Below, piece by piece: positions 17,390 through 28,009 of a DNA stretch of 28,009 bases. Both the position numbers and the translations under genes were made by a program. The stretch comes from a virus: the IMG/VR virus record IMGVR_UViG_3300025122_000110, positions 1-28,009 of that record. One strand, 5' to 3'. Below the pieces are notes generated by a model. That model had not been told where the DNA came from. It did no database searches and saw only the letters and a list, made by a program, of their open reading frames with translations. Numbering within the stretch: the first letter of the stretch is position 1; every line of letters begins with the position of its first letter.

Positions 17390-17788
17390 ATGGGAACACG
17401 CAGCAGAATCGGAATCAAACAAGAAGATGGAAAAATCAAATCAGTGTATTGTCACTGGGACGGATACCCATCGAACAACGGTAAAATCTTACTAGAAAAT
17501 TATATCACCAAAGAACAAGTTGAAGAATTGCTTTCTCATGGTGATATGTCCTCGTTGTATAAAAATTGTAATGGCGCAGATGGTCACACCTACGATAAGC
17601 CGGTAAAAGATCAAACTATTTATTATCATCGTGACCGTGGGGAAACACTTAATTCAGCTGTAATTCACGACACCCCAGACGATGCAAATCAAGAAGAATA
17701 TCTTTATGTCTTTGAGACTGATAAATGGATTGTACATGAAGGCGGTTCGAGGATGACAATTCAAGAGGCAATAGAAAAAGATAGTTAA
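17390..17788 (+). CDS. Conserved phage protein of unknown function (MGTRSRIGI type)
   Basis: A 132-residue protein starting MGTRSRIGIKQEDGKIKSVY, then CHWDGYPSNNG and a later GDMSSLYKN. I recognise this pattern ('G.RSrIGi...dG.i.siYcHwDGYps.nG..L...Y') from small proteins found widely in unrelated phages, with no function known to me. The compact aromatic N-terminus (Cys-His-Trp-Asp) could be a binding site, which is speculation. It has a strong ribosome site (AAAGGAGTAA) and is the first gene of the plus-strand island, next to tRNA genes, as accessory genes of this kind often are. Confidence 0.75.
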   Translation: MGTRSRIGIKQEDGKIKSVYCHWDGYPSNNGKILLENYITKEQVEELLSHGDMSSLYKNCNGADGHTYDKPVKDQTIYYHRDRGETLNSAVIHDTPDDANQEEYLYVFETDKWIVHEGGSRMTIQEAIEKDS

Positions 17789-17833: not shown

Positions 17834-17905
17834 CGTGCGGATAGTTTAATGGTAGAACACTGGTTTTCTAATCCAGAGGTTCGGGTTCAATTCCTGACTG
17901 CACGC
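17834..17905 (+). tRNA. tRNA-Arg (anticodon UCU)
   Basis: Cloverleaf parts: acceptor CGTGCGG/CTGCACG (17834-17840 with 17898-17904, one G-U pair); D arm GTTT-AATGGTA-GAAC; anticodon stem CTGGT/TCCAG with loop TTTCTAA, giving UCU for AGA codons; T arm TCGGG-TTCAATT-CCTGA. Oddities: the junction between acceptor and D stem is three bases (ATA) unless the helix is slid by one, and the base pair next to the anticodon loop is U-U. CCA is not encoded. Phage tRNAs for AGA commonly supplement hosts that read this codon poorly. Confidence 0.75.
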
Positions 17906-17915
17906 TAAATAATAT

Positions 17916-18030
17916 GGAGCAGTGGCGTAAGTGGAAAACGCTATCAGTTTAGCGGCTGATAAAAAATAACCGAACCGAAAGTGCAATTGTCCGTTCGGGA
18001 TTGTGAGTTCGAATCTCACCTGCTCCACCA
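17916..18030 (+). tRNA. Class II tRNA with 8-base anticodon loop and very long variable arm (Leu/Ser-like)
   Basis: Acceptor GGAGCAG/CTGCTCC is perfect and ends in A plus encoded CCA. D stem GCG/CGC. T arm GTGAG-TTCGAAT-CTCAC is perfect. The anticodon stem ATCAG/CTGAT, extendable to 6 bp, closes an 8-base loop TTTAGCGG instead of 7. Depending on phasing this presents UAG (Leu) or AGC. The variable region (17962-18002, 41 bases) is about twice the usual class II length, with a stem CCGAAC/GTTCGG around a 17-base loop. The D-arm sequence TGGCGTAAGTGGAAAACGC suggests leucine tRNA ancestry. Identity is uncertain, but the acceptor end looks fully functional. Confidence 0.65.
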
Positions 18031-18162
18031 ACAGAGCATTTTTTAGTGGTTTTGCGCTCTGACAAAAAACAATAATCACTCTTCCGTTGGCAGTGACATA
18101 AGTTATGGAACTGCATTCTTTATATGAACGATATAATGACTGCTAGGAAAGACTAGCAATTT
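18031..18162 (+). other. Structured non-coding stretch between tRNA-like elements
   Basis: No gene is seen. The plus strand holds a row of hairpins: CAGAGC/GCTCTG (18032-18037 with 18056-18061) inside CCAAC/GTTGG (18028-18032 with 18086-18090); GCAGT/ACTGC (18090-18094 with 18110-18114) enclosing CATAA-G-TTATG; TTATAT/ATATAA around GAACG (18120-18136); and GCTAG/CTAGC (18142-18146 with 18152-18156). It could be processed tRNA spacer, a degraded tRNA, or a separate small RNA. A TATAAT at 18132-18137 lacks a matching -35. Confidence 0.45.
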
Positions 18163-18246
18163 GAGAGAGTAGTTTAAGTGAAAAACACATGAAGGTATAG
18201 ACGTATACTGGATGGTTGGCTGTTCGTTGTCAGTCCCCTCTCACCA
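18163..18246 (+). tRNA. tRNA-like element with replaced anticodon arm and encoded CCA
   Basis: Acceptor GAGAGAG (18163-18169) pairs with CCCTCTC (18236-18242), one A-C mismatch, followed by A and encoded CCA. The TA linker and D stem GTTT/AAAC fit a tRNA and resemble the tRNA-Arg upstream, but the D loop lacks GG. T stem GGCTG/CAGTC has an 8-base loop (TTCGTTGT). Where the anticodon arm should be, a hairpin GTATA-GACG-TATAC with a 4-base loop is flanked by CAT/ATG, so no 7-base loop or readable anticodon exists. It may be a decayed tRNA or an RNA selected for its acceptor end. tRNA is the nearest type label. Confidence 0.45.
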
Positions 18247-18247
18247 T

Positions 18248-18342
18248 TCGTCCGTGGCGGAATAGGTAGACGCTATGCGGTAGTCAACAAACTGAATCAC
18301 GATAACAGTTGACATGTAAGGTGCAAATCCTTGCCGGACGAA
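18248..18342 (+). tRNA. Leu-like tRNA element lacking a canonical anticodon arm
   Basis: Acceptor TCGTCCG/CGGACGA (18248-18254 with 18335-18341) is perfect. TG linker and D arm GCG-GAATAGGTAGA-CGC are almost a consensus leucine tRNA D arm. The T arm GTAAGG/CCTTGC is 6 bp around TGCAAAT, giving a 13-bp acceptor/T stack instead of 12. The 42 bases between D and T arms form no 5-bp stem with a 7-base loop. Instead GTCAAC (18283-18288) pairs with GTTGAC (18308-18313) around 19 bases, with AACTG/CAGTT competing inside. No anticodon can be assigned. CCA is not encoded (A-CAA). Decayed or repurposed tRNA-Leu. Confidence 0.45.
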
Positions 18343-18363: not shown

Positions 18364-18537
18364 ATGAATGTAAAAATGCTACGTGAAAAGCATGGCTGGA
18401 CGCAAAAAGATATGGCAACCTATGTTGGTGTATCGGTTAGCACCATTCAGTCATGGGAACAAAACAAACAAGGCTCCGAGAACTCGCTGAGAAACCCAAG
18501 CAAACGGCATCTTGAAAAGCTGAGGAAATTAGTATGA
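18364..18537 (+). CDS. Short XRE/Cro-type helix-turn-helix protein
   Basis: 57 residues with a ribosome site (CAAGGAATAA). MLREKHGWTQKDMATYVGVS then VSTIQSWEQN is a clear helix-turn-helix of the Cro/CI (XRE) superfamily: 'lR...gwtQ.dlA...gvs..tis.wE.g'. The rest (SKRHLEKLRKL) is one closing helix, so this is close to the minimal DNA-binding domain with no separate oligomerisation or protease part. It lies straight after the tRNA cluster and ahead of three coupled genes (ATGA overlap with the next). It could regulate the island promoter with the palindrome at 17335-17349, but that link is inference. Confidence 0.8.
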   Translation: MNVKMLREKHGWTQKDMATYVGVSVSTIQSWEQNKQGSENSLRNPSKRHLEKLRKLV

Positions 18538-25912: not shown

Positions 25913-27301
25913 CTATCTATAACGCTGGGAAGGGGGACGACCAACACGACCGCCAGTGGATTCTTCTTCAAGATCGAATCGGACAGGAAATTTATAGTCC
26001 CAATAATAGCCGATAGCATCTGATATGTGAGTCAGGGTAGTATCGCCACCAGCTTTAGGATTTATTTTGCGTAAAGTACCTTCAAGATACTGCACCAATT
26101 TTAAGTCACGTTTAAGGCGTGGATTATTCTTTGGATCTAATATCACCCCGACTTCTTTATTCGCATTCAGGATACGGCTATTCGTGGCATTTACCCTATC
26201 ACTAACCGCAGTATTGCCACGCTTAATATACATATTGATTTTTTCAGTGCCGTAATATCTATTTAGAGCATTTGAAATTATCTTCCAATCACTTCCGGTA
26301 GTCGCAGATGTTTTATCGCTGCCCCCTGAAGCATCACCATATACATGAATATCTCCATCGTGATCGCCCCATTGATTAATTACCTCACCGACAATTATCT
26401 CAGTATTGGAATTTACAGGCACCCATATTTCGCCCAAAATAACATCTACAGTGCTTTGAAATCTTACCTCATCGTAGTCATCATCATACAAAATTTTCTC
26501 TTGTAAAATGACCGCCACGCCGGGCGATACATTGAAATCAAAGCAAAAAATTAGGGGTTCATTTGGGCTATAATACTCATCTTTTTTAATCTCAAAATCG
26601 TGCGTATCTTCTTGATAGGAATAATAAACTCGGCCTTGAACATCTGTCTGAACCCCACGAATTTCTATGTCGTAGGTGATTTGATCCATTGATGAGCGCA
26701 TAATTTCTAATTCTGATTCGGGTAAAATATCTTCAGCAGACCATTTGAAGTGGTGCCATACATCTGGATTTTCTCGGGCAAGTCTTTGGAGCAATTCGTA
26801 TTCGATTGATGGTCGAGGCACACCCATAAAAATACCCCAGCCTTCAGTATCTGCTAATGCAGGTAAAACGTTTTGCGTGTATATGCCGCTTTTACAATCC
26901 GCCCATTCGTCTGCCAGTACACCGAAGCACTTAGATCCTTCTATGCGCTTTGGTTCGTCTAGCCCTACTAAAACGATAGTACAGCCGAATATTAAATGTA
27001 TTTCTAATGCACCCTCAAGCTCTTTCTTTTTCCATGACTTTGGAATTGCTGCTTTTAGCCTTGACCACCATATGCGCTTAACCTGTGTGAAGGTTGGTGC
27101 AGTGATATAATAAAAGCCATCCTTTAAGTGCAGGCCATGCCGTTGGTAATCTTGATGAATCAGATCCTTGAAGCACTTGGCAGGTATATCGGTTTTGCCA
27201 CTTCTACGCCCAGCCTGAATAAGAAAGAATCGCTTGCGCCTATTCTTGATTGCCTTAATCAGCCTATCTTGCTCAGGGTGGTAGCGTAGTTTATCGGGCA
27301 T
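25913..27301 (-). CDS. terL: Large terminase subunit (TerL)
   Basis: A 462-residue packaging motor. ATPase: Walker A AGRRSGKT at 30-37, Walker B hydrophobic run GVLADEW near 125-131 with the catalytic Glu. Nuclease (RNase H fold): first acidic motif FCFDFNVSPG (about 250-259), second VYGDASG (about 320-326), third HISDAIGYYWDY (about 425-436). All expected motifs are present in order. It cuts and translocates DNA into the procapsid through the portal. The start overlaps the folE-fusion stop by one base (TAATG). No small terminase is recognisable nearby. The portal is separated from it by the accessory block, which is unusual. Confidence 0.95.
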   Translation of the reverse strand: MPDKLRYHPEQDRLIKAIKNRRKRFFLIQAGRRSGKTDIPAKCFKDLIHQDYQRHGLHLKDGFYYITAPTFTQVKRIWWSRLKAAIPKSWKKKELEGALEIHLIFGCTIVLVGLDEPKRIEGSKCFGVLADEWADCKSGIYTQNVLPALADTEGWGIFMGVPRPSIEYELLQRLARENPDVWHHFKWSAEDILPESELEIMRSSMDQITYDIEIRGVQTDVQGRVYYSYQEDTHDFEIKKDEYYSPNEPLIFCFDFNVSPGVAVILQEKILYDDDYDEVRFQSTVDVILGEIWVPVNSNTEIIVGEVINQWGDHDGDIHVYGDASGGSDKTSATTGSDWKIISNALNRYYGTEKINMYIKRGNTAVSDRVNATNSRILNANKEVGVILDPKNNPRLKRDLKLVQYLEGTLRKINPKAGGDTTLTHISDAIGYYWDYKFPVRFDLEEESTGGRVGRPPSQRYR

Positions 27302-28009
27302 TATAACTTAATTAGATTTAAGAACTCAGATCTTACTTCATGTTCCTTGAATACATCTAAAAGCGCAGAAGTAACCATTGTTGAATTTTGTTTGTTTATT
27401 CCCCTTGAGCACATGCAAAAATGCTTTGCCTCAACAACCACTCCGCAACCCAAAATATCTGGAATATGTTCTTTTATGGCTGTTGCTATTTCCCAAGTCA
27501 TCTGTTCTTGAATCTGCAATCGTCTTGCGTAGGCATCAACAGTTCTTGCCAGCTTAGACAAACCGACAACCTTTCCATTCGGTATATAGCCAATATGAGC
27601 AGTGCCCACTATTGGAAGCATATGATGTTCGCACATTGAATAAAATTCAATATTATTACAGATCACCATTTCAGAGCAGTTAGAATTAAAACACTTTGAA
27701 AGAATTGCTTTTACGTCCATGCCATAACCAGCGTATAATTCTTTCCACGACTTAACCACTCTGGCAGGGGTTTCGATAACGCCCTCCCTTGTTGGGTCAT
27801 CACCAATCGCTTCGATGTATCTGGTAACAATATCCTCTGCGTCTTTTTCGGCTTCATCTTCCCAAGGAAATTGTAGCCATTCTTTTATTTTCTTTTCGGT
27901 TTTATCATATGGCGAATAAAATTCTTTATTCCATCCAACCATATATTTCAGTCGGGTTCTTCCTGAGTCAATTATATCATCAACAAATATATCGGCTTCT
28001 TCTGGTGTC
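27301..28009 (-). CDS. folE: Phosphoribosyltransferase-GTP cyclohydrolase I fusion (5' end outside window)
   Basis: The frame is open to the window edge; the ATG at 27942 is internal. Upstream of it the frame reads [20 protein letters not shown], where [12 protein letters not shown] is the PRPP-binding signature of phosphoribosyltransferases. It continues to [19 protein letters not shown], like the end of purine phosphoribosyltransferases. GTP cyclohydrolase I follows: [19 protein letters not shown], zinc ligands in MCEHHMLP (Cys and second His), [20 protein letters not shown], and HFCMCSRGI with the third ligand Cys. FolE turns GTP into dihydroneopterin triphosphate for preQ0 or folate. The fused domain might supply GMP from salvaged guanine or handle a deazaguanine base; both are inference. 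Confidence 0.9.

Follow-up and report, generated by a model that had tools for sequence, protein, structure and literature searches.

The question raised by this locus is whether a row of four tRNA-like elements in a viral genome, only the first of which was described as having an ordinary anticodon loop, represents tRNA genes in decay or RNAs retained for a purpose other than decoding. The window, that is, the whole 28-kb stretch of DNA analyzed (28,009 nt; IMG/VR record IMGVR_UViG_3300025122_000110), carries genes for GTP cyclohydrolase, large terminase, minor head, major head, and tape measure protein. The minus strand carries nearly all of its structural genes, and the four elements, e1 to e4, are located in a plus-strand island bounded by a conserved phage gene to which no function is assigned (17390-17788) and a gene for a small HTH regulator (18364-18537). 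The GTP cyclohydrolase gene, folE (27301-27942), adjoins the terminase gene and may hint at a modified guanine in the phage DNA. Searches with the capsid, terminase, and scaffold-region proteins revealed no close relatives of the window phage in the collections searched, and 80 distant terminase loci have, besides the terminase itself, at most folE in common with the window; because no near relative was found, the argument for e4 is built on evidence from its family.

The four elements are present at the positions originally proposed and are genuine features of the sequence, but they are not of a single kind, comprising a tRNA-Arg, an element that scores as a tRNA, a weak candidate, and e4, a member of the group named family A below. 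The first, e1 (17834-17905, plus strand), is an ordinary tRNA-Arg gene with the anticodon TCT in a regular 7-base loop, as had been noticed (ARAGORN; Rfam RF00005, 54.3 bits). The second, e2 (17916-18030, plus strand), is a class-II tRNA-like RNA (fold of -37.5 kcal/mol) whose cloverleaf includes a 7-bp acceptor free of mismatches, a D arm of the class-II type, a T arm, A73, CCA, and a very long variable arm of ~40 nt; its score of 41.6 bits is above the RF00005 gathering score of 29. Its anticodon loop, TTTAGCGG, does have the 8 bases originally counted instead of the 7 of a tRNA, and can be read as a tRNA-Leu(TAG)-type loop with one base added. Default ARAGORN missed e2, and in the search for relatives its D-arm pattern gave 0 hits and BLAST returned only tRNA T-arm matches.

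The third element, e3 (18163-18246, plus strand), possibly a degenerate tRNA-like element, has 6/7 acceptor pairs, CCA, and the GTATA/TATAC hairpin with a 4-base loop on which its description was based, but its tRNA-like status is weak and near chance in shuffles: the relaxed ARAGORN level at which it first appears is also reached by 2/150 shuffles, and combinations of an acceptor (at least 6/7 pairs) with CCA occur at chance level in the window (54, versus 56 in shuffled sequence). Its defects are one acceptor mismatch, a D loop lacking GG, and the T loop TTCGTTGT; the Rfam tRNA model, applied to 621 bases with the cut-off relaxed to E<=10, gave no match there. No relatives of e3 were found, the two hits of its D-arm 19-mer, both in apparent coding sequence, being judged chance. 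Weakly supported and apparently degenerate, e3 is not counted here as established. As predicted, CCA is encoded in two of the elements, e2 and e3, and is not encoded in e1 and e4.

The fourth element, e4 (18248-18342, plus strand), is an anticodon-less RNA resembling tRNA-Leu. Sequence and folding agree that acceptor, D, and T arms are kept and that the anticodon arm is absent, as the original prediction held, although the acceptor is better read as 18248-18254 (TCGTCCG) paired with 18335-18341, with seven perfect pairs; its 3' strand, CGGACGA, together with A73 extends over 18335-18342. The D arm, GCG-GAATAGGTAGA-CGC (18257-18273), is of the tRNA-Leu type and the same as that of canonical tRNA-Leu; the hairpin GTCAAC...GTTGAC (18283-18313) occupies the position of the anticodon and variable arms, where a hairpin is found family-wide, and the T arm, GTAAGG-TGCAAAT-CCTTGC (18316-18334), has 6 bp and a G at position 55 of the T-loop. 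No credible cloverleaf with a 7-base anticodon loop, which was named beforehand as evidence against the claim, was obtained for e4 in any folding or ARAGORN mode, and neither the Rfam tRNA model (at E<=10) nor the tmRNA model RF00023 matched it. Anticodon-intron readings of e4 by ARAGORN were rejected, since the matching arm is absent in other members, and permuted tmRNA hits and ARAGORN tag calls, obtained in very relaxed modes only, were taken as chance.

A relaxed BLAST search of e4 against annotated phages led mostly to un-annotated gaps in phages of Listeria, Leuconostoc, and Enterococcus, where the loci found have a common layout consisting of acceptor, TG, GCGGAATAGGTAGACGC, a variable middle, an ATG linker, GTAAGG-TGCAAAT-CCTTAC, and acceptor. 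A gapped pattern search recovered this family A in 39 IMG/VR stretches and, among 84,980 species genomes, in only 3 places, the single one examined of which (Fictibacillus) lies in a prophage and is flanked by a late-regulator-like gene on the upstream side and by genes for terminase and portal on the downstream side. A covariance model, R1, built from 21 family-A sequences, recovered members outside the pattern in LpeD, Lenus, JNU_P10, LP-037, B054, Pd_22F, API480, WC29P3, BtpYZU01, and phi3T, with middles of up to ~130 nt; in EFDG1, it matches the two ends separately, and inspection joins them over a ~150-nt middle. The family is thereby found in phages of Enterococcus, Listeria, Lactobacillus, Leuconostoc, Weissella, Brochothrix, Paenibacillus, and Bacillus (phi3T), and in a few prophages. 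A scan of 299 Bacillota genomes with R1 gave three family-like elements and four places occupied by ordinary tRNA-Leu. Under this model, canonical tRNA-Leu genes reach 44-48 bits and most family-A members 70-90 bits (82.2 bits for e4, which is itself among the building sequences); the scores of long-middle members extend into the range of tRNA-Leu, which makes a check of the T-loop necessary. The invariance of that loop is partly by construction, since the T-loop and a portion of the T stem were prescribed in the initial search pattern; UGCAAAU is nevertheless kept in the members found by BLAST and by the model, and one weaker relative (L231) has UUCAAAU.

ARAGORN found 0 of the family-A members tested, Rfam 15 gave no match at family A in the loci scanned (the window and L088-L090), and most phage records carry the elements without annotation, presumably as a consequence of tRNA finders requiring an anticodon arm. 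A search of open-licence papers for anticodon-less phage tRNA-like RNAs, or for their sequence strings, returned no description; family A is widespread and apparently undescribed. The very abundant non-coding RNA of Listeria phage cka15, which is reported to account for ~67% of the phage transcripts at 40 min (PMC12282133), was considered as a member and rejected, as its locus (L239:4389-4699) has no family-A or Rfam match. Listeria phage P100 has, on the minus strand at 126402-126543 (L236:1501-1642), a family-A-like copy that, with an intact acceptor and damaged D and T loops, looks like a member in decay.

The family-A fold is under selection, as indicated by the compensatory changes in its stems. 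In 21 full sequences, the three stems are paired in 98.2% of the cells, and 81 cells are double-changed versus 24±4.2 in shuffles; in 30 core sequences, the double-changed cells number 129 versus 35.8±5.2, and the covariation score is 0.681 versus 0.165 in shuffles and 0.05-0.13 in slid controls. Double changes affect 6/7 pairs of the acceptor, 2/3 of the D stem, and 3/6 of the T stem, the evidence for the last resting on BLAST-derived members (T stems GTAGGG/CCCTAC, GTCGGG/CCCGAC, GGGAGG/CCTCCC, and GTCAGG/CCTGAC), as some T-stem and T-loop positions were preset by the pattern. Unconstrained and given the alignment only, RNAalifold returned the same three helices. Disruptive acceptor changes in relatives, the other observation that was to count against the claim, were not seen for e4; the stem changes almost completely and stays paired. 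The original argument that kept acceptors speak against random decay is consequently borne out for e4 and does not extend to e2 and e3, neither of which has detected relatives; e1 is an ordinary tRNA.

The conserved tRNA-like fold has no decoding arm. In 27/36 members, the best candidate for an anticodon arm has three pairs or fewer, and five pairs were found in two; the region that replaces it is hypervariable, about 28-152 nt long, and usually has a hairpin at its end. The hairpin ending just before the ATG linker exceeds expectation in two tests (113 versus a mean of 68 and a maximum of 91 in 2000 shuffles, and 202 versus a mean of 130 and a maximum of 150 in 300 shuffles). A general pseudoknot in the middle is marginal overall, being reached by 8/300 shuffles; H-type pseudoknots can be recognized by eye in some members (L092, L098, L114, L117, and L122). 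The base following the acceptor is A73 in 33/43 members, and CCA at positions 74-76 is absent from the sequences inspected. Acceptor and T stems are adjacent and form what counts as a branch of 7+6 = 13 bp versus 12 in canonical tRNA-Leu, which, when aligned to R1, lacks one position in each strand of the T stem; the 13th pair, with G-C in 28/30 sequences, G-U in 2/30, and 0 double changes, is compatible with this count.

Among known RNAs, bacterial tRNA-Leu (RF00005) has in common with family A the acceptor stem, the Leu-type D arm, the T arm, and mostly A73, whereas family A lacks the anticodon arm and the Leu variable arm, has the T-loop UGCAAAU and one additional T-stem pair, contains the variable region described above, and, in the loci scanned, gives no Rfam tRNA match. 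Canonical tRNA-Leu, with the same D arm, is also detected by R1, which points to tRNA-Leu as the likely ancestor; both the Leu-type D arm and A73 are found in family A, and they bear on descent and not on function. The tRNA-like domain of tmRNA (RF00023) also lacks an anticodon and has a large inserted structure, but family A is much smaller, and its D arm is still paired and shows compensatory change; no reading frame for a tag was recognized in it, and RF00023 gave no match at e4 or at the L088-L090 elements. In Enterococcus phage EFDG1, an un-annotated tmRNA match (L090:1145-1495, 140.6 bits) is followed by the family-A RNA at 1498-1702. The bacterial Y RNA YrlA (RF02553), according to work cited in PMC12282133, is a tRNA mimic that does not decode, has D and T arms, and is present in phages. 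The YrlA Rfam model is permuted, with the T arm before the D arm, in contrast to the normal order of D then T in family A, and it gave no match at family A; EFDG1 has elsewhere (L090:3068-3168) a YrlA-like Y RNA match of 28.4 bits, under the curated cut-off.

An acceptor/T branch of 13 bp, the length counted in family A, is characteristic of tRNA-Sec (SelC), in which it is composed of 8+5 pairs and accompanied by a UCA anticodon, unlike the apparent 7+6 branch and absent anticodon arm of family A. In bacterial tRNA-Sec, the 13-bp branch disfavors EF-Tu, and by analogy family A is probably a poor EF-Tu substrate and kept out of translation, which is already implied by the missing anticodon. Stable non-tRNA RNAs within a phage tRNA cluster are exemplified by RNAs C and D of phage T4. 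Phage tRNAs have been proposed to counter tRNA-directed defense (PMC10264068, PMC11555353), including anticodon-loop variants (PMC10264068); these tRNAs have anticodon arms, whereas family A is devoid of an anticodon loop.

Members of family A occupy non-coding intergenic gaps that differ among phages. Some lie downstream of late-gene regulators, near terminase or HNH genes, and some after genes that look like those of single-stranded DNA-binding proteins; two loci (L213 and L104) are within tRNA clusters, and one (L090) directly follows the phage tmRNA. Most loci checked for tRNA genes have none on the stretch around the element, which is the part of the phage that the check covered. No neighbor gene shared across the family-A loci was found, which favors an action in trans and disfavors the simple cis-regulation of one gene. 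In annotated records, the element is co-directional with the preceding gene; no signal of an own promoter was detected, and downstream terminators are in modest excess (7/35 versus 6% in controls). This combination would be expected of an RNA excised from a longer transcript, although, given the missing promoter signal and the modest terminator excess, family A could also act only as part of such a transcript.

Homology, a conserved fold, the lack of an anticodon arm, and presence in many unrelated phages and prophages characterize family A, and the reading to which we give about an even chance is that e4 is a phage-borne, tRNA-Leu-derived RNA that is processed, does not decode, and mimics a tRNA in trans. 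The family keeps the parts read by tRNA-processing enzymes, i.e., the acceptor, D, and T arms and mostly A73; RNase P and the 3' tRNA nuclease would excise the RNA from a longer phage transcript, and CCA would be added rather than encoded. The resulting RNA, unable to decode, would be stable and act in trans, its common body engaging a host tRNA-binding factor such as a synthetase, a processing enzyme, or a tRNA-directed defense or toxin, and its variable region may provide specificity or evade recognition. A role as decoy or effector RNA would be the most likely one. In a more elaborate form, to which we give clearly less than an even chance, family A would be a modular anti-host or anti-defense RNA dedicated to this task in phages of many genera, whose common body, by virtue of its 13-bp branch and altered T-loop, would stay outside translation and capture a tRNA-binding host factor and whose hypervariable domain would be engaged in an arms race. 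The use as a decoy for anticodon nucleases, suggested earlier for the cluster, is unlikely for e4, as the cleavage site is missing without an anticodon loop; a decoy for factors acting on the acceptor end or elbow is possible, and the acyl-donor and protein-binding uses suggested alongside it are likewise conceivable.

The alternative that survives best, though we consider it unlikely, is that the element serves as processing punctuation, cleavage by RNase P and the 3' tRNA nuclease separating or stabilizing the flanking mRNAs and the excised RNA having no job of its own. Acceptor, D, and T arms suffice for cleavage by these enzymes, and the CCA not encoded in the members inspected, the co-directional preceding gene, and the absent promoter signal are all consistent with it; punctuation nevertheless leaves unexplained the unusual conserved T-loop, the apparent 13-bp branch, and the retained hypervariable region, and some members lie within tRNA clusters, where normal tRNAs would serve equally. 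Less probable still is a function as aminoacyl donor, in which the RNA would be charged, most likely with leucine, and the amino acid passed to a non-ribosomal reaction. Leucyl-tRNA synthetase does not need the anticodon, the tRNA-Leu body and the frequent A73 would suit it, and the tRNA-Sec-like branch would, by analogy, keep the RNA off EF-Tu, but the G55 of the T-loop may alter the elbow, the tRNA-Leu variable arm is lost, and no gene for a partner enzyme was found beside family A. The short distance to the gene start in the window and several loci would suit an operator of tRNA-like form within the 5' UTR of the gene that follows, a cis-regulatory role that appears doubtful to a further degree, as the following genes are unrelated among phages and sometimes on the opposite strand. 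That the elements are former tRNA genes decaying at random while their cluster shrinks is possible for e3, which appears degenerate, and the copy in phage P100 would fit it, but it is hardly credible as a general account and is excluded for e4 because of the compensatory changes in all three stems of its relatives, the derived features common to many unrelated phages, and the loci at which family A is present although the stretch examined has no tRNA gene.

Family A provides a concrete test case for the non-decoding roles of phage tRNAs, a question that is decades old. A conserved tRNA-like RNA is un-annotated in long-studied phages, such as PSA, B054, and LP-037 (Listeria), EFDG1 (Enterococcus), Lenus and LpeD (Lactobacillus), and phi3T (B. 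subtilis), and R1 is applicable to any phage genome.

A further element of the island, which the original prediction did not mention, is located between e2 and e3. This element B (18120-18158, plus strand) consists of a stem, TTATAT/ATATAA, followed by a conserved hairpin, TGACTGCTAGGAAAGACTAGCA (T-GACTGCTAGGAAAGACTAGC-A, motif 18138-18157). Its 20-base core is found exactly in 76 IMG/VR stretches (L130-L205) and also in Acinetobacter, Cellulophaga, and Vibrio phages; a stem one base upstream of the hairpin exceeds expectation (226 versus a mean of 175 and a maximum of 197 in shuffles), and Streptococcus phage phi30c has a compensatory variant, TGACTGGTAGGAAAGACTACCA. Scans of the window, L086, and L087 gave no Rfam match for element B, other loci of which are L086:1501-1535 and L240 at about 1200-1223. 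Element B is often a neighbor of tRNA genes, also within tRNA clusters, or of Leu-like elements devoid of an anticodon, or it comes after ssDNA-binding-protein-like genes.

Two additional types of tRNA-like element were observed. In the Lactobacillus phages LpeD (L210, ~2100-2187) and Lenus (L213, ~1604-1690), another tRNA-like element adjoins tRNA-Arg genes and has the stem TCAGG/CCTGA or TCGGG/CCCGA, a compensatory difference, with a loop of ~20 bases versus the 7 of an anticodon loop. Near element B, the loci L131, L133, L157, L163, L143, and L199 contain Leu-like elements whose middles are long and whose T-loops are of the TTCGAGT or TTCAAAT type; these possibly represent a sister family of anticodon-less tRNA-like RNAs.
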